Source: Aquipuribacter sp. SD81 (GTDB lineage: Bacteria; Actinomycetota; Actinomycetes; Actinomycetales; JBBAYJ01). From it: 54,688 nucleotides of DNA. The notes below the pieces were generated by a model. It ran no database searches. It was not told where the DNA came from and saw only the letters and a program-made list of their open reading frames with translations. This document shows positions 44,017-54,204 of this stretch, in pieces; within the stretch, counting starts at the first letter, position 1; every line of letters starts with the position of its first letter. The stretch covers positions 1 through 54,688 of the forward strand of contig NZ_JBBAYJ010000027.1 of NCBI RefSeq assembly GCF_037153975.1. The letters run 5' to 3'. The position numbers and the translations under genes were made by a program.

Positions 44017-47000
44017 TCAGGTCCAGCGGACGGTGCGGACGGCGCTCGTGCCGGTCGCGTGGTCGGCGTCGCCCGGCGCCACCACGCGGTAGGCCTCGCT
44101 GCCGGCGGTCGTGCGACGCACCTGGAAGCGGTAGCCGCTCGTGCCCGACAGGGTCTGGGAGGTCACCCGGCGCCAGCCGTCGGCGACCCGGCGCTCCAGG
44201 TGCACCGTGCTCCCGGCGTGCGCGGGCGACACGGTGCCGGCGACCTCGACGGTGCCGCCCCGGGGAGCCGTCGCGCGGCTGAGCGCGCTCGACACCGCCG
44301 TCGCGACGTCGACCCGGTGCGCGGGCCCGCCGGAGCCGAGGACGGAGCCCCGGCCGGGCACCCGCACCTGGTAGTCGGCGTGCCACGACGGGCGGTGCTG
44401 CAGCCGCGCGGTGCCCGACGCCGACGTCGTCGCCGTCGCGACCCTCGTCCAGCCGGTCGCGCCCCGCTTCCGCACGTGCAGCTCGACGGGGACCCCGGCC
44501 AGGGCCGTGCCGTCGGTCCGCCGCGCGACGGCGTCGACGGCGACGGTCTGCCCGTACACCGCGGACCGGCGCGTGGCGGTGCTGGTGACGCTGCTGCCGT
44601 GCCACACCCCGACCGCCCGGCGACCGGTGTTCCCGACCGCGTCGCGGGGGAAGACCGCCACCGCGTGGTAGCCGCCCTGCGCAAGACCGGTGACCGTCAC
44701 CTGCGTCGCGCTGCCGCGGTAGACGACCCGCCCGTCGCTCGGCGACGACGGCGCCGTCCGGCCCGGGCGCGTCACGACCGTCACCCCGGCGAAGTCGGGG
44801 TCCGCCGGCGGTGACCAGCGCAGCGCGACGCTGCCCCAGCCCGGCGTGCTCGACAGCCCGCGCACGGGGCCGGGTGGCGTCGTGTCGACCGGGGTGACCG
44901 CGGGCGACGGCGCCGACGGCGCCCCGGGCCCGGCGGCGTTGGTCGCGGTGACGACGAAGCGGTACGCGGTGCCGTTCGTCAGCCCGGTGACGACGGCGGA
45001 CCGGGCGGTGGGCCCGGTCTGCAGGCTCCGCCCTCCCGGCTCGACCGTGACGGTGTAGCCGGTCACGCTCAGGCCCTCGCCGTCGGCCTCCTGCCAGCTC
45101 ACCGTCGCCCGCTCGTCGCCCGCCACGGCGGTGACGCCCGGCGGGGCGAGCGGCGGCAGGGGCGACACGTCGACGAGGTGCACGGCCCCTGGGACCTGCT
45201 GACCGGCGACGAGCACACCGTCGGGCACCGGGAGCAGGGCGCCGTCGGCGCGGGCACCGCCACGCTGCAGCACGTCGGCGCTCGCTCCCCCGGCTCCCCG
45301 GCCGGTGCCGACGACGTAGCGGTCCAGCGCCGCGGCGCGACCGGACCACGTCGGCTGCCCCGACCACAGCGTCCCGTCGTCGGCCTCCGCGACCGAGGCC
45401 CCGCCGACGAGGAAGGTGGCGGACTCGGTCAGCAGCCCCCGCTGCGTGTCGACGGTGCGCAGCCGCTGCGCGGACGACGGCGCGCTCAGCTGCACGAGCC
45501 CGGCGGGCGACACCGCGAGCGGACCGGTCTGCAGCCACGCGTCGACGTCCGGCACGTCGCCGGAGCCGGGCAGCACGGGGGTCCGCAGCGGCGTACCGTC
45601 GAGGGGGACGACCACGACGGCGTGCCGGGCCCCCTGTCCGCCGCGGACCCGGGTGACGAGGACGACCTCGCCCCGCTCCCGGTCGACGACCATGGGCTGC
45701 CGGCGGGTCGTGCTGAGGAACTCCACGGGCTGCAGCCGGGTGGCGGCTCCCGCGGCGCCCGCGACGGGCAGCTCCGCCCCGCCCCCGGCGAGCGTCCGCC
45801 AGGTGCCGTCCGGCTGCTGGGCCCGCAGCCAGCACTCCTGCGGCCCGCAGAGCACCGCGACGACCCGACCGTCGGGGGCGAGGTCGGCCGTCCACTGCAC
45901 CCGGTCCCGCAGGTAGGTGGCCTCGATCCCGAGGCCGCGGGCCGCGTCCCGGACGTCGGCGACGACCTCGACGACCGGGCCTGAGGGCGTGGGCACCTCG
46001 CGACGGACGTCCACGGCGCTCACGACCGCGAGGTCGCCGTCGAGCGGGTGGTGCACGAGCCGGTGGACGCCCTCCGGCAGCCCGACCCGGGCCGAGGGGG
46101 TGCCGTCCGGCGAGCCGAAGCGGTGCAGGTCGTGACGGCCGAGAAGGACCCGGCCGCCCGTCCCGAGGTCGGACCCGTCGACCGCGAAGGCCCGCAGCGC
46201 GTGGTCGCACGCGACGACGACGTCGTCCCCGCGCACGGCCAGGGCGGCGGTGCCGCAGTCGCTGTCGGACCGGTCGCCGGTCAGGTCGGCGTGGTCCGCG
46301 ACGGTGCGCACGGAACCGCCGTCGACCACCCGGACGGAGAGCTCCCTGGGGGCGAGGGCGGTCTCGTCCAGGTAGGCGAGCACGCCGTCACCGGCCGTGA
46401 GCGCCGCCGCGTGCATCGGGGCACCGAGCGCGGGACCGTCCGTCGCCTCGCCGGGCTCCGGGTACCGACCACCGCCGGGACCGCTGCCGGCCACCAGGAC
46501 GGGGGGGAGCCCGGCCGTCCGGTCGTGGCGGTAGATGCCGAAGATGCGCGCCTCGTACAGCGCGCCGTCGGGTCCTTCCGCGAACGTGCCGGCGGACGTG
46601 CCGGACAGCGGGGCCGGCACGGTCCCGTCGACCCACCCCGGCGGCAGCAGGCCGGTCGTCCCGCTGCGGCCGTCGGGGCCGCGCCGGATGTCCACCACCA
46701 TGGAGCCGTCGCGCAGGACGAGCCTCGGGTCGACCCACCAGGCCGCACCGACCTGCGGCGGGCGGCGGACGCTCAGCCGGTGCCGGGAGTCGATCGTGGC
46801 GACGTACTGGTTGCCGCGCAGCAGCCACAGGACGCCGTCGTCCGCACGCGTCAGCTGCGAGGCAGCCGGCAGTCCCACGTCCCGGGCGTCCCACGTGGGG
46901 GGTACCGGCACGTCCCACGTGGTGCCCGACGCCGCCACGTCGGGCCCGGGCGTGCCGTAGCGGACGTCGACGGTCCCTGCGCGCGGGTCCAGCGCGCGCA

Positions 47001-47283
47001 GCTGGCGGGTCGACTGCTCCTGCACGAGGAGCGTGCCGTCGGGCTCCACGGCGAGCGCGCGTGGGGCGGGTGTGACCAGCGCCTCGGTCGCCGGCCCGCC
47101 GTCGCCGAGCCGCCCCCCGAGCACGTGCGAGACGCGGGGGCGCGGCTGCTCGCGGTCGCCGTCGGTGGCGAGCGCGGCGCCGACGTCGGCCGTCGCCGGT
47201 CCCACCAGGCCGACCAGGCCCACCGCGACGGCAGCCGGCAGCAGCAGCGCAGCGACGAGCGCGCGCACCACGAGACCACGCAT
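44017..47283 (-). CDS. Secreted beta-propeller / FN3 / Ig-like protein
   Basis: A 1088-aa exported protein. Residues 1-30 are a Sec signal peptide (GLVVRALVAALLLPAAVAVG). Residues ~35-660 carry repeated short segments such as LAVEPDGTLLVQE, LTRADDGVLWLL, AEGPDGALYEAR and AEADDGTLWSG, typical of NHL-like beta-propellers. Two fibronectin type III domains follow at ~714-800 and ~801-885 (VTAVAGDERATVSWQEADG, GLTNGTAYRFVVTATNAAGP). The last ~190 residues are two Ig-like repeats (VTSTATRRSAVYGQTV; VSSALSRATAPRGGTVEV). It is likely extracellular or wall-bound; no catalytic site was seen. ATG 47283 is chosen because AGGAGG lies ten bases upstream, and TACGGT at 47304-47309 is a probable -10. Confidence 0.78.
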   Translation of the reverse strand: MRGLVVRALVAALLLPAAVAVGLVGLVGPATADVGAALATDGDREQPRPRVSHVLGGRLGDGGPATEALVTPAPRALAVEPDGTLLVQEQSTRQLRALDPRAGTVDVRYGTPGPDVAASGTTWDVPVPPTWDARDVGLPAASQLTRADDGVLWLLRGNQYVATIDSRHRLSVRRPPQVGAAWWVDPRLVLRDGSMVVDIRRGPDGRSGTTGLLPPGWVDGTVPAPLSGTSAGTFAEGPDGALYEARIFGIYRHDRTAGLPPVLVAGSGPGGGRYPEPGEATDGPALGAPMHAAALTAGDGVLAYLDETALAPRELSVRVVDGGSVRTVADHADLTGDRSDSDCGTAALAVRGDDVVVACDHALRAFAVDGSDLGTGGRVLLGRHDLHRFGSPDGTPSARVGLPEGVHRLVHHPLDGDLAVVSAVDVRREVPTPSGPVVEVVADVRDAARGLGIEATYLRDRVQWTADLAPDGRVVAVLCGPQECWLRAQQPDGTWRTLAGGGAELPVAGAAGAATRLQPVEFLSTTRRQPMVVDRERGEVVLVTRVRGGQGARHAVVVVPLDGTPLRTPVLPGSGDVPDVDAWLQTGPLAVSPAGLVQLSAPSSAQRLRTVDTQRGLLTESATFLVGGASVAEADDGTLWSGQPTWSGRAAALDRYVVGTGRGAGGASADVLQRGGARADGALLPVPDGVLVAGQQVPGAVHLVDVSPLPPLAPPGVTAVAGDERATVSWQEADGEGLSVTGYTVTVEPGGRSLQTGPTARSAVVTGLTNGTAYRFVVTATNAAGPGAPSAPSPAVTPVDTTPPGPVRGLSSTPGWGSVALRWSPPADPDFAGVTVVTRPGRTAPSSPSDGRVVYRGSATQVTVTGLAQGGYHAVAVFPRDAVGNTGRRAVGVWHGSSVTSTATRRSAVYGQTVAVDAVARRTDGTALAGVPVELHVRKRGATGWTRVATATTSASGTARLQHRPSWHADYQVRVPGRGSVLGSGGPAHRVDVATAVSSALSRATAPRGGTVEVAGTVSPAHAGSTVHLERRVADGWRRVTSQTLSGTSGYRFQVRRTTAGSEAYRVVAPGDADHATGTSAVRTVRWT

Positions 47284-48341
47284 GTCCCCCACCTCCTCGC
47301 GGACCGTAGTCGAGGCGCGCCGCGCCCGAAGGGCGTTCCCTCACCTCCGCCCCGGACGGCGTCGGGCCGGTCCCCCGTCCCCGCCGACGACCGCGCGACG
47401 AGCGCGAGCACCACCCCGCCGAGCACGAGGCAGAAACCGACGACCTGCAGGGCGGTGAGCGCCTCGCCGAACCACCACCACGCGAGCACGGCGGCCCCGA
47501 CGGGCTCGAGGGTGGCGACGACGGTCACGAGGGTCGCCGGGATCCACCGCAGCGCGGCCGTCTCGGCCGCGAAGGGCGAGAGCGTGCCGAGGACGACGAC
47601 CCACGCGACCACGAGGACGAGCGCCACCTCACCTGCGCCGAGCGCGTCGGGCAGCGCGACCGGCTGCCCCGTCCAGCCGCCGAGCGAGCGCCACGGCACG
47701 AAGGCGAGCGAGAGCAGCCCCGGCACGGCGAAGCCCCAGAACGTCGTCGACAGCGCGTCGCGGGTGCGGACGATGCGCTCCCCGAGCAGGAAGTACGTCG
47801 CGAAGGACCCGGCCGCGACGAGCCCGGCCACCACCCCTACGGTGTCGAGCTCGACGTCGCCGCCGAGCCCGAGGGCGAGGGCGAGGCCGCCGAGGCTGAG
47901 GGCGAGGGCGGGCCACAGCAGGGCGCTGACCCGCTCGCGCAGCACGAAGCGGGCGACGAGCGCCACGAGCAGCGGCGCGAGGTACTCCAGCAGCAGGGCG
48001 AGACCGATCGGCAGCCGCTGGATGGCGACGAAGTAGCTCACCTGCACGAGTCCCACCCCGCCGAGGCCGTAGGCGAGCAGCAGCGGCACCTCCCGGGCGC
48101 GCAGCCGGAGCCGGGAGGCGCGCCCGGTGGCCAGCAGCACGAGCAGGAGCACCAGGGCCGTGCCCGCGATCCGGACGGCCGCCAGCGGGACGGGGTCGAC
48201 GCCGTTGGTCAGCGCGAGCCGCGACACCCCGGCGTTGACGACGAACAGCGCGATGCCGAGCAGGACGAGCGTCCACCCGCGGCCGAGGTGCGCCCCGGGC
48301 GCTTCGGGACGGACGGGCGCCTGGACGCCGGGTTCGGTCAC
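46851..48341 (-). CDS. EamA/DMT-family transporter, frame runs past its natural end
   Basis: An inner-membrane transporter of the drug/metabolite superfamily with ten helices in two EamA repeats. Helices begin at LVLLGIALFVVNAGVSRLAL and end near VVGFCLVLGGVVLALVARSS (about residue 318). Such proteins export amino acids or metabolites; the substrate is unknown. The open frame continues for ~175 further residues of arginine-rich, non-membrane sequence into the secreted-protein gene, overlapping it by 433 bp. A stop in the next frame at 47341-47343 would give ~332 aa. A single-base shift near the C runs at 47372-47382 (sequencing error or real mutation) is therefore likely. The GTG start has CACACT six bases upstream. 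Confidence 0.75.
   Translation of the reverse strand: MTEPGVQAPVRPEAPGAHLGRGWTLVLLGIALFVVNAGVSRLALTNGVDPVPLAAVRIAGTALVLLLVLLATGRASRLRLRAREVPLLLAYGLGGVGLVQVSYFVAIQRLPIGLALLLEYLAPLLVALVARFVLRERVSALLWPALALSLGGLALALGLGGDVELDTVGVVAGLVAAGSFATYFLLGERIVRTRDALSTTFWGFAVPGLLSLAFVPWRSLGGWTGQPVALPDALGAGEVALVLVVAWVVVLGTLSPFAAETAALRWIPATLVTVVATLEPVGAAVLAWWWFGEALTALQVVGFCLVLGGVVLALVARSSAGTGDRPDAVRGGGEGTPFGRGAPRLRSARRWGTCVVSWCARSSLRCCCRLPSRWAWSAWWDRRRPTSAPRSPPTATASSRAPASRTCSGGGSATAGRRPRRWSHPPHARSPWSPTARSSCRSSRPASCARWTRAQGPSTSATARPGPTWRRRAPRGTCRYPPRGTPGTWDCRLPRS
47304..47309 (-). promoter_or_regulatory. -10 hexamer TACGGT for the secreted protein gene
   Basis: Minus-strand TACGGT lies 20 bases before ATG 47283, and AGGAGG overlaps the expected transcript start region. 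The promoter sits inside the apparent 3' extension of the EamA gene, so the two genes are probably separate units. Confidence 0.4.
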
Positions 48342-48347
48342 CGGCGC

Positions 48348-48353
48348 AGTGTG
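48348..48353 (-). promoter_or_regulatory. Possible -10 hexamer CACACT for the EamA gene
   Basis: Minus-strand CACACT ends six bases before GTG 48341, inside the 27-bp gap after the heliorhodopsin stop. It is a CAnnnT variant, so read-through from the heliorhodopsin gene is also possible. Confidence 0.3.
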
Positions 48354-48368
48354 CCCGGGGCGGGCCGC

Positions 48369-49199
48369 TCAGCCGGCGAGCGTCCCGCCGAACACCTGCC
48401 ACGCGAGCGCGGACTTCGCCGTGAGGCTCAGCAGGATGTACGTCCGCTCCCCCACCACGTAGCGCCGCCACGGGCCGACGCGGGCGTACTGCAGCCCCTG
48501 CACGACGGCGAAGGAGTTGAAGAAGAGGAAGAGCGAGATGATGATCGCGAAGACGAAGGTCGGCGGCTCGGCGCCGGACGTCGCCCCTGGCGCGACGACG
48601 TAGAGCAGGATCGCGAGCCACGGCACGGCCCCGGCCACGCAGCCCATGACGAAGGGCAGCCACCGGCCGCTGCCGGGCTCCTCGTAGCGCTCCTGCAGCC
48701 AGCCGAAGAGGATCATCGACGCGTTGACGCCGAACAGGCCGATGAGGGCGGCGGCGTCGGCGATGCCGGTCAGCTGCGCGATGAGCACGACCATGACCGA
48801 CGACGACAGCGCGTACTCCACCCAGCGATAGAAGTTGTGGTGGTCGGCGAGGCCGCGCAGGTAGCGCTCGTGCACCCGCGGCAGCGACACGAGCACGTGG
48901 AAGGACGCCGACAGCGCGAGGAACAGCGCGACGCCCAGCGCGAGCGGGGAGTCGAACAGCGTGACGGTCTCGTACCGTCCGGCCCCCGGCGGGCCCGCGA
49001 GGTACGACGCCGTGACCGGCAGGGTGAAGTCGGTGGCGAGCGCGAGCACGACGACCGCCTGCACGGCGTGCAGGACGGCGGCGACGACGTTGTCCCGCCG
49101 CAGGTGCGCGAGGGACCCCGTCGTGTCGTGCGCCGGGTCGACCTCCGGCTCGTGCGGCGTGCCGACGACGTGGGCGGCGGCGGGCGTGCGGTCCGTCAT
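48369..49199 (-). CDS. Heliorhodopsin
   Basis: A 276-aa, seven-helix membrane protein of the heliorhodopsin family. These are retinal-binding light sensors with inverted topology and no known ion pumping. Helix 3 contains DHHNFYRWVEYALSSS, with the counterion glutamate at about E128. Helix 7 contains ERTYILLSLTAKSALAWQVF, with the retinal Schiff-base lysine at about K262. Both segments are diagnostic, and their spacing fits the family. The soluble ~35-residue N-terminus is expected to face the cytoplasm. ATG 49199 is preferred; a TTG at 49205 is the only other start, because an in-frame TGA precedes it. A perfect 14-bp palindrome lies 8 bases upstream. No retinal-synthesis gene is present in the window. 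Confidence 0.9.
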   Translation of the reverse strand: MTDRTPAAAHVVGTPHEPEVDPAHDTTGSLAHLRRDNVVAAVLHAVQAVVVLALATDFTLPVTASYLAGPPGAGRYETVTLFDSPLALGVALFLALSASFHVLVSLPRVHERYLRGLADHHNFYRWVEYALSSSVMVVLIAQLTGIADAAALIGLFGVNASMILFGWLQERYEEPGSGRWLPFVMGCVAGAVPWLAILLYVVAPGATSGAEPPTFVFAIIISLFLFFNSFAVVQGLQYARVGPWRRYVVGERTYILLSLTAKSALAWQVFGGTLAG

Positions 49200-49207
49200 C
49201 TCCAATT

Positions 49208-49221
49208 CTCAGCATGCTGAG
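49208..49221. promoter_or_regulatory. Perfect 14-bp palindrome upstream of heliorhodopsin
   Basis: CTCAGCATGCTGAG is self-complementary over all 14 bases and lies 8 bases before the heliorhodopsin ATG, in a small AT-richer island. CAGCAT within it is placed like a -10 element, so a bound repressor would block transcription. The regulator is unknown. Confidence 0.5.
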
Positions 49222-49251
49222 GGAATCGGCGCGACCCGGGACGGCGTGACC

Positions 49252-50532
49252 TCAGGGCGTGACGAGCCGGACGGGGCTGGCGTAGGCGAGCGCCCGGTTG
49301 TTGCTCGGGTGACCGGACGGTCCCGGCTGCAGGTTGCGGAGGGTCGGGTCCGCGACCCGCACGACGAGCCACGGCACCTCCTCGGCGTCCCAGCCGCCCT
49401 GCAGGTCGACAGCGACCTCCGCCACCTGACCGGAGCGGGCGGGCGCGACGGCGAGGACGGTCGGCACCGTGAGGCCCCGGGTGAGGACCTGGACCTCGAG
49501 CTCGCGGCCGGTGTGCTCGGGTCCGGTCTCGACGTCGACCGACACGGTCAGCGACGTCGTGCCGCCGGGCACGTCGAGGGCGCCGCCCATCCGGACGGCG
49601 CCCGCGCCGGGCGCGGAGCCGTCGCCGGCCTCCACGACGCAGTCCAGCCGCAGGCCGGGCTCGCGCGTGGCGAAGAAGCGCCGCGCGAGCAGCGCCTCGC
49701 GCACGCCCGCGCGGTCCCAGGAGCGCACCCACAGCCCGGAGCGGCCGCGCCCGGGCTCGAAGCCCCAGCGCCGCCCGTGCTCGTCGGAGACCCCGAGCAG
49801 CCCGGGCCGCCAGCCCGCGTCCAGGCACTCCAGCAGGGGGCTGGCCTGGCCGAGCCGGTAGCCCTCGAACAGGTAGTCGTCGTCGCGGTTGAAGACCTCG
49901 AGGCTCACCATGCGCTCGGTGAGGCGCGGCTCGTGGCGGAAGGCGTCGAAGCGCAGCGGCTCCCGACCGGGGTGGTTGTAGCCGAACAGGGCGTCGTCGC
50001 CGGAGCGAGAGGCCACGAGCCACTCGTGCAGCCCGGCGACGCCGAGCCGGTCGTCCGGCGGCAGCCACTCCTCGCTGAACCACACGTTGACGTGGCCGAG
50101 GTGCGGGGTCGTCCACTCGAAGCCGCGCACGGCCGTGAAGCCGCCCGGGTCGTCGAAGCGCTCGGCGATCTCCGTCGCCCGCAGGAAGTCCGCCTGCTCG
50201 ATCGTCTTGACCGGCATGCCCGCCCACGGCACCACCTCGCGGACCCGCTCGAGCGCGTCGGGGTCGGCGAAGCCCGCGTGGTCGGTGAGGGCCGCGGCGT
50301 CGAGGCCGGACGCGCGCATGCACGCGAAGGCGTCGTCGGCGTGGCCCGCCCCGTCGGACAGGTCGCTGTGGTTGTGCAGGTCGGCGTGCAGCACCTGCGT
50401 GCCCGCCACGAGGTCGGCGTGGCGCGTCGCGGCGAGCCCGCTCGTGCGCGACGGCCCGGGTCGCGGCTCCTCGCCCCGCGAGTGCGGCCGCAGGAGCAGG
50501 GCGCCCGCGCGGCCCTCGACGCCGGCCGTCAC
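49252..50532 (-). CDS. CehA/McbA-type PHP metallohydrolase
   Basis: A 426-aa protein with an N-terminal PHP domain: VLHADLHNHSDLSDGAG (about 47-63) holds the first metal-binding His/Asp set, ALTDHAGFADPDAL the next, and VRGFEWTTPHLGHVN and LFGYNHPGREPLRF add conserved His residues. A C-terminal beta-rich part follows (~290-426). This matches the CehA/McbA branch, which includes carbaryl hydrolase and many uncharacterised phosphoesterase-like enzymes. No signal peptide is evident. The GTG overlaps the end of the cystathionine beta-synthase gene (GTGA). The substrate cannot be predicted. Confidence 0.8.
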   Translation of the reverse strand: MTAGVEGRAGALLLRPHSRGEEPRPGPSRTSGLAATRHADLVAGTQVLHADLHNHSDLSDGAGHADDAFACMRASGLDAAALTDHAGFADPDALERVREVVPWAGMPVKTIEQADFLRATEIAERFDDPGGFTAVRGFEWTTPHLGHVNVWFSEEWLPPDDRLGVAGLHEWLVASRSGDDALFGYNHPGREPLRFDAFRHEPRLTERMVSLEVFNRDDDYLFEGYRLGQASPLLECLDAGWRPGLLGVSDEHGRRWGFEPGRGRSGLWVRSWDRAGVREALLARRFFATREPGLRLDCVVEAGDGSAPGAGAVRMGGALDVPGGTTSLTVSVDVETGPEHTGRELEVQVLTRGLTVPTVLAVAPARSGQVAEVAVDLQGGWDAEEVPWLVVRVADPTLRNLQPGPSGHPSNNRALAYASPVRLVTP

Positions 50533-51941
50533 CGCGCGAGGAAGCCGAGCAGGTCCAGGCGCGTGAGCACGCCGACGGGCTTGCCGTCGTCGACCACGAG
50601 CACCGCGTCGCCGAGGGTGAGGGCCTCGCGCAGCGCGTCGACGGACTCCCCGGCCCCGATGAGCGGCAGCGGGGAGTCCATGTGCGCCTCGACGGGGTCG
50701 GCCAGGCTCGCCCGGCCGGTGAAGACCAGCTCGAGCAGGTGCTCCTCGGTCACCGCCCCCGCGACCTCGCCGCTGGTGACGGGCGGCTCGGCCTTGACGA
50801 CGGGCATCTGGGAGACGCCGTACTCGCGCAGGATTCCGATCGCGTCGCGGATCGTCTCGTTCGGGTGGGTGTGGACGAGCGCCGGCAGGTCGCCCGCCTT
50901 GGCGCGCAGCACGTCGCCCGCGGTGCGGCCGCCCTCGGCGGGCAGGAACCCGTACGACGACATCCAGCGGTCGTCGAAGATCTTCGACAGGTAGCCACGG
51001 CCGGAGTCCGGCAGCAGCACGACGACCACCGCGTCGTCGCGGCCCTCGCGCGCCAGGCGCTGCGCGACGCGGAGCGCGCCGACCGCGGCCATGCCGCACG
51101 AGCCGCCCACGAGCAGGCCCTCCTCGCGGGCGAGGCGGCGGGTCATGTGGAAGGAGTCCGCGTCGGACACCGCGACGATCTCGTCGGGCACCTCGGGGTC
51201 GTACGCGCTCGGCCAGAAGTCCTCGCCCACGCCCTCGACGAGGTACGGCCGACCGGTGCCGCCGGAGTACACGCTGCCCTCCGGGTCGACGCCAACCACC
51301 TGCACGGGCCCGCCCTCACGGTCCGCGCTCTGCTCCTTGAGGTAGCGGCCGGTGCCGGTGATGGTGCCGCCCGTGCCGACGCCGCAGACGAAGTGGGTGA
51401 CGCGGCCCTCGGTGTCGTCCCACACCTCGGGGCCCGTGCTCTCGTAGTGGCTGGCCGGGCCGGCGGGGTTGGAGTACTGGTCGGGCTTCCAGCCGCCGGG
51501 CAGCTCGCGGGCGAGCCGGTCGGAGACGGAGTAGTACGAGTCCGGGTGGCTCGGCTCGACGGCCGTGGGGCACACGACGACCTCCGCGCCGTACGCGCGC
51601 AGCACGTTGCGCTTGTCCTCGCTCACCTTGTCCGGGCACACGAACACGCAGCGGTAGCCCCGCTGCTGCGCGACGAGCGCGAGCCCGACCCCGGTGTTGC
51701 CGCTCGTCGGCTCGACGATCGTGCCGCCCGGGCGCAGCGCGCCGGACTCCTCGGCCGCCTGGACCATCTTGAGCGCGATGCGGTCCTTCACGCTGCCGCC
51801 GGGGTTGAGGTACTCGACCTTGGCGAGCACGAGCGGGCCGCGCCCGGAACCGGCGCCCTCCCACAGGCCCGCGGTCACCGAGTTCAGCCGGACGAGCGGG
51901 GTGCCGCCGACGAGGTCGACGACGGAGCTGGCGTAGCGCAC
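50529..51941 (-). CDS. cbs: Cystathionine beta-synthase
   Basis: Condenses serine (or an activated serine) with homocysteine to cystathionine, using PLP. It is 470 aa: a catalytic domain of about 330 residues with the PLP lysine in NPGGSVKDRIALKM (about K52), EPTSGNTGVGLALVA, VCGVGTGGTITGTGRYLKEQ and LVGGSCGMAAVGAL, then a pair of CBS motifs at about 340-470 (PNETIRDAIGILREYGVSQM; GDAVLVVDDGKPVGVLTRLD). The length and CBS pair separate it from CysK. With the gamma-synthase/lyase at 32272 it could complete transsulfuration. The start is GTG with CACGAT six bases upstream. Confidence 0.93.
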   Translation of the reverse strand: MRYASSVVDLVGGTPLVRLNSVTAGLWEGAGSGRGPLVLAKVEYLNPGGSVKDRIALKMVQAAEESGALRPGGTIVEPTSGNTGVGLALVAQQRGYRCVFVCPDKVSEDKRNVLRAYGAEVVVCPTAVEPSHPDSYYSVSDRLARELPGGWKPDQYSNPAGPASHYESTGPEVWDDTEGRVTHFVCGVGTGGTITGTGRYLKEQSADREGGPVQVVGVDPEGSVYSGGTGRPYLVEGVGEDFWPSAYDPEVPDEIVAVSDADSFHMTRRLAREEGLLVGGSCGMAAVGALRVAQRLAREGRDDAVVVVLLPDSGRGYLSKIFDDRWMSSYGFLPAEGGRTAGDVLRAKAGDLPALVHTHPNETIRDAIGILREYGVSQMPVVKAEPPVTSGEVAGAVTEEHLLELVFTGRASLADPVEAHMDSPLPLIGAGESVDALREALTLGDAVLVVDDGKPVGVLTRLDLLGFLAR

Positions 51942-51947
51942 GGGCCC

Positions 51948-51953
51948 ATCGTG
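51948..51953 (-). promoter_or_regulatory. Possible -10 hexamer CACGAT for cbs
   Basis: Minus-strand CACGAT ends six bases before the GTG at 51941. The spacing agrees with other putative leaderless starts in the window; the first base differs from TAnnnT. Confidence 0.35.
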
Positions 51954-52005
51954 GCAGAGCCCTGCGAGGGCCCAGACCCGGTGGGCGCCCCACCGTGGCC
52001 GTTCC

Positions 52006-52011
52006 TAGGCT
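52006..52011 (+). promoter_or_regulatory. -10 hexamer TAGGCT for the SGNH hydrolase gene
   Basis: TAGGCT ends six bases before GTG 52018. This supports that codon rather than the internal ATGs at 52099 and 52111. Confidence 0.5.
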
Positions 52012-52017
52012 GGGGAC

Positions 52018-52959
52018 GTGACCCGGGGAGACGTGAGGTGGCTGCTCTCCCGGAGCGATCCTGAGCGGTCGGGCTCACGTCACGGTCCCGCCGTGCCGAT
52101 GGAGACCGGCATGGGCAGCGTGCGCCCGGGGCTCCGACGCCTCACGCAGGCCGTCGCGATCGGCGGCGGCGGCCTCACGCTGCTCGGCGTGACCGGCGTG
52201 GGGGTCCTCGTCGCGGAGGCGCACCTGGCCAAGCGGTGGATCGAGCCGCGCATGCCCGCGCCGCACGCGTTGGACGGTCGGTACGACGCCGCCGGTCCCG
52301 TGCCGGACGACGGCCTGCTCGAGACCGACCCCGTCCAGGTGGGGGTGCTCGGCGACTCCGCGGCCGCCGGCGTCGGCGCCGACTCCCCCGCCGGGACACC
52401 GGGCGTCCTGCTCGCGACCGGGGTCGCCCGGGCGCTCGGTCGGCAGGTGCAGCTGACGGTGTCCACCCGCCCGGGCGGCATCTCCGCCGAGCTCGAGGGC
52501 CAGGCCGACGTGCTCCTCGCGCGGGCGCCGCGGCCCGACGTCGTCCTCGTCATCGTCGGCGGCAACGACGTGCAGCGGCGGGTGCCGGCGCCGACCGCGG
52601 CCCGGCTCCTGCGCGAGACGGTCGCCCGGCTCACCGCGCTCGGCACCCACGTCGTGGTCGGCACCACGCCCGACCTCGGCACCATCGCCCAGGTCGCGCA
52701 GCCGCTGCGGGCGCTCGGCGGGCGCTGGTCGCGACAGCTCGCCGCCGCGCAGACGGCATCCGTGCTGCTCGCGGGCGGTCACCCCGTCGACCTGCGCGCG
52801 CTGCTCGCCGACGACCTGCGCCGGGACCCGGCGCCGCTGTTCGCCGAGGACCGGTTCCACCCCTCGGCCGAGGGGTACCGGCGGGTCATGGCGCACGTCG
52901 TCCCGGTCGCCGTCGCGCTCCTCACGGGCACGCACCAGCCGCTGGTTACCGGTCGGTAA
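52018..52959 (+). CDS. SGNH/GDSL family hydrolase
   Basis: A 313-aa protein. A 27-residue basic N-terminus precedes one hydrophobic segment (VAIGGGGLTLLGVTGVGVLV, about 43-62) that acts as an anchor or signal. The SGNH blocks follow: VQVGVLGDSAAAGVGAD (nucleophile Ser in GDS, about 114), the Gly block around STRPGG, VLVIVGGNDVQRR (Asn block) and DRFHPSAEGYRR (catalytic Asp/His). Members are esterases or lipases acting on acyl or acetyl groups. An extracytoplasmic location is inferred. The leaderless -10 at 52006 favours the GTG; ATG 52099 would remove only the N-terminal extension. Confidence 0.82.
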   Translation: MTRGDVRWLLSRSDPERSGSRHGPAVPMETGMGSVRPGLRRLTQAVAIGGGGLTLLGVTGVGVLVAEAHLAKRWIEPRMPAPHALDGRYDAAGPVPDDGLLETDPVQVGVLGDSAAAGVGADSPAGTPGVLLATGVARALGRQVQLTVSTRPGGISAELEGQADVLLARAPRPDVVLVIVGGNDVQRRVPAPTAARLLRETVARLTALGTHVVVGTTPDLGTIAQVAQPLRALGGRWSRQLAAAQTASVLLAGGHPVDLRALLADDLRRDPAPLFAEDRFHPSAEGYRRVMAHVVPVAVALLTGTHQPLVTGR

Positions 52960-52961
52960 CC
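52944..52961. promoter_or_regulatory. Inverted repeat upstream of the thiolase gene
   Basis: GGTTACC-GGTC-GGTAACC has perfect 7-bp arms around a 4-bp centre. It overlaps the end of the SGNH gene and sits where the -35 of the thiolase promoter should be. It looks like an operator for a dimeric regulator. Confidence 0.4.
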
Positions 52962-52968
52962 CCGCGGG

Positions 52969-52974
52969 TAGGCT
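52969..52974 (+). promoter_or_regulatory. -10 hexamer TAGGCT for leaderless thiolase gene
   Basis: TAGGCT ends six bases before the ATG at 52981, the same hexamer and distance as at 1377 and 52006. No ribosome site is present. Confidence 0.5.
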
Positions 52975-52980
52975 CGCGGC

Positions 52981-54204
52981 ATGACCGACGCCGTCGTCGT
53001 CTCCGCGACCCGCTCACCGATCGGACGCGCCCGCAAGGGCTCGCTCGTCGACGTCCGTCCCGACGACCTCGCCGCGCAGGTCGTCGGCGCCGCGCTCGAG
53101 GCGGTCCCCGGCATGTCGGCCGACGACCTCGACGACCTGCTCCTCGGCTGCGCCGAGCCGTCCGGCGAGCACGGCACCAACCTCGCGCGCGTCGTCGCCG
53201 TGCTGCTCGGTCACGACGGGCTGCCGGGCACGACGGTCAACCGGTTCTGCTCCTCCTCGGTGCAGACCACGCGCATGGCGATGCACGCGATCCGGGCGGG
53301 TGAGGGGCACGCGTTCGTGTCGGCCGGGGTCGAGTGCGTCTCGCGCTACCGGGGCGTGGCCGGGTCGGACCTGTTCGGCGACGACACGATGAACCCGCGC
53401 TTCACGCCGGCCCGGGACCGCACCGCGCGCACCGCCGAGATGGACGCGGACTGGCACGACCCGCGCGAGGACGGCGAGCTGCCGGACGTCTACATCGCCA
53501 TGGGGCAGACCGCGGAGAACGTCGCCCACCTGCGCGGGGTCTCGCGCGAGCGGCAGGACCACTGGGGCGTCACGAGCCAGAACCGCGCGGAGGCGGCCAT
53601 CGCGGCCGGCCACGTCGCCCGCGAGATCACACCGGTGACGACACCGGAGGGGTCGGTCGTCACGACCGACGACGGCCCACGACCCGGCGTCACGTACGAG
53701 AAGGTCGCCTCGCTGCAGCCGGTGTTCCGCGCGACGGGCACCGTGACGGCGGGCAACTGCTGCGCCCTCAACGACGGCGCCGCCGCGCTGGTCGTCGTCT
53801 CCTCCGACTTCGCGCACGCGCACGGGCTCACCCCGCTCGCGCGCGTGGTGTCCACCGGCGTGTCGGCGCTCAGCCCGGAGATCATGGGGCTCGGCCCGGT
53901 CGAGGCGTCGCGGCAGGCGCTGCAGCGCGCCGGCCTCACGATGGCCGACGTCGACCTCGTGGAGATCAACGAGGCGTTCGCCTCCCAGGTCCTCGCGAGC
54001 GCCGACGAGCTCGGCGTGGACGAGGAGAGGCTCAACGTGCACGGCGGGGCCATCGCCTACGGCCACCCGTTCGGCGCGACCGGCGCCCGCATCACGACGA
54101 CGCTGCTCAACGCGCTGCGGGTGACCGACGGCTCGATCGGCCTGGAGACGATGTGCGTGGGCGGCGGCCAGGGCATGGCCGTCGTGTACGAGCGGCTGTC
54201 GTAG
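52981..54204 (+). CDS. Acetyl-CoA C-acyltransferase (thiolase)
   Basis: A 407-aa thiolase. The acyl-accepting cysteine is C90 in VNRFCSSSVQTTRMAMHAIR, the His motif is HGGAIAYGHPFGATGARI, and the second catalytic cysteine lies in ETMCVGGGQGMAVVYE. LVEINEAFASQVLASADELG is the conserved NEAF block. It cleaves 3-ketoacyl-CoA in beta-oxidation or condenses acetyl-CoA; chain-length preference cannot be read here, and no other fatty-acid gene is adjacent. The loop usually reading GGMESMS is GVECVSRY. It is probably followed on the same transcript by the VOC protein 21 bp downstream. Confidence 0.92.
   Translation: MTDAVVVSATRSPIGRARKGSLVDVRPDDLAAQVVGAALEAVPGMSADDLDDLLLGCAEPSGEHGTNLARVVAVLLGHDGLPGTTVNRFCSSSVQTTRMAMHAIRAGEGHAFVSAGVECVSRYRGVAGSDLFGDDTMNPRFTPARDRTARTAEMDADWHDPREDGELPDVYIAMGQTAENVAHLRGVSRERQDHWGVTSQNRAEAAIAAGHVAREITPVTTPEGSVVTTDDGPRPGVTYEKVASLQPVFRATGTVTAGNCCALNDGAAALVVVSSDFAHAHGLTPLARVVSTGVSALSPEIMGLGPVEASRQALQRAGLTMADVDLVEINEAFASQVLASADELGVDEERLNVHGGAIAYGHPFGATGARITTTLLNALRVTDGSIGLETMCVGGGQGMAVVYERLS

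Follow-up and report, generated by a model that had tools for sequence, protein, structure and literature searches.

Sequence and genomic context of a heliorhodopsin with an altered cytoplasmic loop in Aquipuribacter sp. SD81

Results

The gene at 48369 to 49199 encodes, by sequence, a true and canonical heliorhodopsin, an ordinary-looking new member of a known family. It probably works as a typical heliorhodopsin, with retinal made by Blh and a light-induced change that acts on a partner protein and does not pump ions. Support for this reading comes from the family, the predicted fold and the retinal-site residues, from purifying selection on the gene, and from a Blh gene with a partial carotenoid route in the genome; retinal binding, the lack of pumping and signalling by protein contact we infer by analogy. 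K262 would carry retinal, probably from the cell's own Blh, in a protonated Schiff base whose counterion is E128. Isomerisation of the retinal by light would cause a change that reaches the cytoplasmic loops and there modifies the activity of a partner protein or its binding. Two papers describe AbHeR and OcHeR as acting through their cytoplasmic loops on partners (PMC9529153, PMC11109279), and everything said of these two proteins below comes from these papers.

The heliorhodopsin gene and its retinal site

The window, i.e., the whole stretch of 54,688 nucleotides that was analyzed, is contig 27 of the genome of strain SD81 (here G000; 3.86 Mb, 69 contigs, 96.7% complete).

48369 to 49199, minus strand: heliorhodopsin gene, 276 amino acids, ATG at 49199, stop codon ending at 48369, no internal stop

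The protein matched the Pfam heliorhodopsin profile PF18761 over its entire length with E = 7.4e-97 and 323.9 bits (cut-off 26.7), and NF038020, the HeR equivalog of NCBIfam, with 319.9 bits (cut-off 100), which bears out the identification made in an earlier note on this DNA. It fell below the Pfam cut-off for type-1 rhodopsins (PF01036; 19.1 against 24.6 bits), the family of the KR2-type sodium-pumping rhodopsins with an NDQ motif. A phmmer search of the PDB returned the 48C12 chains (E about 3e-90), followed by TaHeR (5e-53). The closest solved relative, 48C12 (6su3, 6su4, 6uh3, 9ljj), is alike in fold and 57% identical, and aligns without gaps over 249 residues at an offset of 21, the N-terminus of the window protein being about 21 residues longer. 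E128 and K262 of the window protein correspond to E107 and K241 of 48C12, which we take to be the counterion and the retinal lysine, respectively. The Schiff-base lysine and counterion, which the earlier note had located in the helix-7 string SLTAKSALAWQ and the helix-3 string YRWVEYALSSS, are intact, and both strings were found in the protein.

For comparison we used public heliorhodopsin loci (the best 80 of 83 places from one genome scan), 20 loci from the same order and the locus of the congener G002. Removal of three duplicates (L168, L171, and L172) gave a translated set of 98 loci, 93 of which were full-length; the partial ones (L005, L036, L066, L077, and L080) were left out. With the window protein the alignment had 94 rows, and 93 is the useful number, as L076, admitted through its tblastn match, has a translation of only 23 amino acids. 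Position 128 was a glutamate and position 262 a lysine in 93 of 94 rows, the remaining row being the uninformative L076. The window protein has H44, H101, R125, W126, E128, Y129, E170, S258, K262, and W267, and these ten retinal-site positions were kept in 91 to 93 of the 94 rows. The retinal-site residues of the G002 protein, read directly, were kept as well. A tree of the 93 usable rows, L076 being left out, showed the window and G002 proteins as sisters with a support of 100/100, and the pair neighboured two heliorhodopsins from other families of the order (support 95/84).

An AlphaFold2 model made from an alignment of 20 heliorhodopsins had a mean pLDDT of 86.4, with about 57–61 over the first 30 residues. 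Its best match in the PDB was 48C12 (6su3; TM 0.86/0.92, rmsd 1.5), and its ten best PDB chains were all heliorhodopsins, so that a seven-helix fold is predicted. The inverted topology with the N-terminus inside is assumed from the homology to 48C12.

Gene cluster around the heliorhodopsin gene

Four further features of the region are:

47376 to 48341, minus strand: EamA (DMT superfamily) transporter gene, conserved part, beginning 27 bp past the heliorhodopsin gene
49208 to 49221, no strand: 14-bp perfect palindrome CTCAGCATGCTGAG directly upstream of the heliorhodopsin start
49252 to 50532, minus strand: PHP-domain/CehA-McbA family metallohydrolase gene, 52 bp upstream of the heliorhodopsin gene
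50529 to 51941, minus strand: cystathionine beta-synthase gene cbs, with a 4-bp overlap with the PHP gene

The order on the minus strand is cbs, PHP, heliorhodopsin, EamA. Pfam and NCBIfam matches agree with the position between an EamA transporter and a PHP metallohydrolase that had been proposed before; the PHP profile was just short of its Pfam cut-off (25.0 against 26.4) and CehA_McbA above its own cut-off (90.3 against 80). The spacing suggests that the four genes form one operon. From 50529 to 54204, cbs adjoins a GDSL-lipase-family gene and a thiolase gene, with PHP, heliorhodopsin and EamA on its other side, and this cbs/GDSL/thiolase order presumably resembles that of the mycobacterial cbs region. 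Past its conserved part, which is about 320 amino acids long, the EamA frame stays open without a stop as far as 46851 (46851 to 48341, minus strand). It thereby enters, by about 430 bp, the gene of a 1,088-amino-acid fibronectin-III protein (44017 to 47283, minus strand), the start of which looks like a signal peptide by eye and which was not found at the corresponding position in G002 or G001. Insertion of the fibronectin-III gene may have taken away the original EamA stop.

In the congener G002 the cbs-PHP-heliorhodopsin-EamA order is the same, and the gaps measure 71 and 42 bp. In G001, cbs, PHP, and EamA lie on one contig without a heliorhodopsin gene, the gap between PHP and EamA being 73 bp. 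No heliorhodopsin match was found in the whole G001 genome, which is in 550 contigs, so that the absence is surer at the cluster site than overall. Heliorhodopsin is thus present in two of the three congeneric genomes (G000 and G002), and gain in these two cannot be told apart from loss in G001. The arms of the palindrome, TCAGC-NN-GCTGA, were also found upstream of the heliorhodopsin gene in G002 and were absent from the 73-bp gap in G001; this conservation is that of two related genomes. Allowing one mismatch, the window has five matches to the palindrome where 0.54 would be expected; two of the five are the palindrome itself, read on either strand. A scan of 47000 to 52300 for promoters and terminators found nothing.

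A tblastn search for orthologues of PHP, cbs, or EamA found none beside the 80 public loci (best 80 of 83) and none beside the other heliorhodopsin loci of the order, 20 in number. Three of the 20 duplicate public loci, and the searches together cover 97 distinct loci with flanks of at most 8–10 kb, often shorter, some contigs beginning or ending at the heliorhodopsin gene. A profile of the three orthologues added one weak EamA match, two genes from the heliorhodopsin gene in L021. It did not detect an EamA-family gene of L005 that is three genes distant, and distant EamA genes are therefore under-counted. Genes at most four places from the heliorhodopsin gene were clustered for 96 of 99 loci, the other three having no heliorhodopsin called. 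The largest group was ABC-ATPase-like (16 loci), at scattered positions and on both strands, and the remaining groups comprised six loci at most. MsrA was near the heliorhodopsin gene in 3/96 loci, two of them from this genus, and among the named public loci (best 80 of 83) thiolase relatives were near it in 3/80 and MsrA in 1/80; these numbers are too few for use. Among the loci compared, the cluster context is restricted to the genus.

None of the ten neighbour genes listed by Cho et al. (2024) is in the cluster, their list lacking cbs, PHP, and EamA. In the literature searched, supplementary tables of two gene-context papers excluded, no report of a heliorhodopsin next to a PHP domain or EamA was found. 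The match for heliorhodopsin and EamA was an Asgard transporter survey. The earlier note had suggested that a partner may be encoded by one of the adjoining genes. Conservation of the cluster in G002 speaks for this, while the G001 cluster without heliorhodopsin and the 0/97 other loci speak against it, so that a partner encoded next door is weakly supported.

Full-length PHP relatives of 50–54% identity were found in four genomes outside the genus, three of them with heliorhodopsin (Fisher p = 2.7e-5, 297 genomes of the order; the Fisher tests here and below ignore kinship). PHP was rejected as a partner suggested by this co-occurrence, as the two genes lie on different contigs outside the genus, with PHP among other genes. 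The co-occurrence is seen in only two families, so shared ancestry can explain it, and it was not counted as a link.

The cytoplasmic FG loop

48462 to 48485, minus strand: codons 239 to 246 (ARVGPWRR), FG loop (ICL3 by homology) with A239, P243, and R246

The FG loop reads QYKGKGKWSNY in 48C12 and QYARVGPWRRY in the window protein. Of the 94 rows, 91 have R or K at position 239; the window and G002 proteins have A, and L076 is unreadable there. Loss of the otherwise universal K/R239 is confined to this genus among the 94 rows. Position 246 was D in 67 of 94 rows and R in four (the window, L092, L032, and L169). The ICL3 net charge of +2 is common, being that of 39 of the 94 rows, and the change is therefore one of pattern. 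As the window and G002 proteins descend from one ancestor, it counts as a single event.

The positions studied in AbHeR and OcHeR were mapped by spacing alone (+23 and +10, respectively). The residues mutated in AbHeR, E147, K148, E150, E151, K216, K217, K220, D223, and E228, then correspond to E170, R171, E173, E174, A239, R240, P243, R246, and E251. E170 and E251 are invariant across the rows (L076 aside), which supports this mapping. The ICL2 charges (E147, K148, E150, and E151) are alike in the two proteins, whereas the basic equivalent of K216 is missing from the window protein. In AbHeR, K216Q raised the Kd for glutamine synthetase about 37-fold, each single change of K216, K217, or K220 to Q was scored as no binding, and D223N bound about twice as tightly (PMC9529153). 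The OcHeR residues W225, R229, R233, R235, and D236 map to positions 235, 239, 243, 245, and 246; only R235 (R245) is kept and the others are G, A, P, and R, respectively. Single changes of W225, R229, R233, and R235 gave tighter binding to the membrane ABC transporter that is the partner of OcHeR, R229Q lowering the Kd 18-fold, and binding also needs R102, R104, and R105 of ICL1 and D167 and W170 of ICL2 (PMC11109279). These five correspond to R112, L114, R115, S177, and W180, i.e., two of five are lost, in a part of the mapping made less sure by gaps in ICL1 and ICL2. The natural substitutions thus lie at positions that set partner affinity in AbHeR and OcHeR, and this makes a direct prediction of binding testable: docking to glutamine synthetase would be weak, and a partner located in the membrane would meet no repulsion at position 239.

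The EamA transporter would be the first partner candidate, at a low prior. It is unlikely that the heliorhodopsin controls a protein encoded in its own cluster, EamA being the likeliest, through an FG loop altered for this contact. The idea draws on the tight same-strand cluster in G000 and G002 with heliorhodopsin immediately ahead of EamA, on the joint loss of W235, K/R239, and K/R243, unique to these two genomes among the 94 rows, and on the tighter transporter binding of OcHeR changed at the equivalent positions; the OcHeR context is alike in that the window cluster too has a transporter gene. Against it, G001 keeps PHP and EamA without heliorhodopsin, orthologous neighbours are found at none of the 97 other loci, and the nearest EamA genes elsewhere are those of L005 and L021. 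The lost equivalents of R104 and D167 also speak against an OcHeR-like contact, the OcHeR partner is an ABC transporter and thus of another fold than EamA/DMT, the ICL3 charge is ordinary, and G000 and G002 represent one event. A narrower version holds that the genus FG loop (W235 and the basic residues at 239 and 243 gone, R246 in place of D) was rewired from enzymes like glutamine synthetase to contact with the EamA exporter, which would give light-dependent amino-acid export or sulfur-amino-acid flux; we regard it as decidedly unlikely.

Retinal supply and a second rhodopsin

Matches to PF15461, PF01036, and PF00494 (E ≤ 0.001) were found in the genome solely on contigs 6, 7, and 14. The window is therefore without a retinal-synthesis gene or another rhodopsin, as had been stated. 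The hint of a retinal shortage did not hold, as the full-genome search that the earlier note had proposed found Blh on contig 6 and crt genes on contig 14. The Brp/Blh carotene dioxygenase is the sole PF15461 match and passes both the NCBIfam (119.2 against 95.25) and the Pfam cut-off, yet is weak within the order (106 bits, rank 15/17). Aligned with relatives it has the stretches HGALDH, VHF, WHSLRH, and PH, which we take to bind metal. On contig 14 a squalene/phytoene-synthase-family gene lies beside genes for a polyprenyl synthetase, two CrtI-family enzymes, a glycosyltransferase, and a PF04240 carotenoid protein. Formation of beta-carotene needs lycopene cyclase, and none was seen in the crt region read. 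The cell probably makes its own retinal through Blh. Retinal auxotrophy or scavenging is unlikely in this genome, since Blh and the crt genes argue against it unless lycopene cyclase is truly absent.

A second rhodopsin, of type 1, is encoded on contig 7 (L091:9866-10702) and has N, D, and Q at the three helix-C positions, YRYMNWSIDVPVLLTQ. Its PDB matches were a chain named xanthorhodopsin (3e-67), chains named sodium pumping rhodopsin (7e-63), and chloride pumps (2e-57). The NDQ motif marks sodium pumps, and this protein represents the KR2 type in the genome. In the congeners G001 and G002 the type-1 rhodopsins are DTE-type, as opposed to NDQ in G000. All three congeneric genomes have a Blh match and a type-1 rhodopsin. 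It is not unusual for a heliorhodopsin genome to encode a second rhodopsin; actinorhodopsin and heliorhodopsin occur together in 74 Luna-1 actinobacterial genomes (57%; PMC12422013).

Among the 297 sampled genomes of the order, 22 had heliorhodopsin, 17 Blh, and 19 a type-1 rhodopsin above cut-off. Blh was present in 6/22 heliorhodopsin genomes against 11/275 others (Fisher p 6e-4) and type-1 rhodopsin in 6/22 against 13/275 (Fisher p 1e-3). Blh and type-1 rhodopsin occurred together in 15 genomes (p 8e-20), a far tighter pairing than that of either with heliorhodopsin. The carotenoid oxygenase PF03055 was matched in none of 23 genomes (the 22 heliorhodopsin genomes and G001) and in 2/14 controls. 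Neither PF15461 nor PF03055 was matched in 16/22 heliorhodopsin genomes, which places the window genome in the minority having a retinal-forming family. In one genome, G168, type-1 rhodopsin and heliorhodopsin occur together without a Blh match.

Selection and alternative functions

The G000 and G002 heliorhodopsins are 85% identical, with a dN of 0.093, a dS of 0.359, and a ratio of about 0.26 (NG86). This is similar to PHP (0.24) and EamA (0.25) and above cbs (0.16), GDSL (0.16), MsrA (0.14), and thiolase (0.12). Purifying selection acts on the heliorhodopsin gene, at no more than ordinary strength. Such a ratio at this identity, together with the kept retinal-site residues, makes it improbable that the gene is a passenger, newly acquired or being lost, with no strong physiological role, even though it is present in two of three congeners and only 22/297 genomes of the order, has no conserved neighbour, and is altered at loop residues conserved elsewhere.

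Regulation of glutamine synthetase, demonstrated for AbHeR of the same family (PMC9529153), is very unlikely here. No glutamine synthetase gene adjoins the heliorhodopsin gene, the neighbours being cbs, PHP, and EamA. With A239, R240, and P243 at the positions of K216, K217, and K220, two of the three charges needed by AbHeR are gone, although R246 replacing D223 could partly offset the loss. Light-driven transport, as of protons by the viral V2HeR3 (PMC9448325), is extremely unlikely, given that the closest solved relative is 48C12 in a comparison confined to non-viral heliorhodopsins, that AbHeR showed no pumping (PMC9529153), and that a pump-type rhodopsin is already in the genome.

Discussion

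The roles of heliorhodopsins in general are largely unsettled. The reading we consider probable is that of a typical heliorhodopsin acting on a partner protein. Retinal auxotrophy may apply to those heliorhodopsin genomes of the order, 16/22, in which PF15461 was not matched. What is new here is the empty site in the congener G001 and the altered docking loop, which can be used for testing partner binding: three congeneric genomes share the cluster, and one differs at that site solely by the missing heliorhodopsin. Should the loop prove to have been rewired to the transporter, the EamA-family exporter would be a new class of partner for heliorhodopsins.
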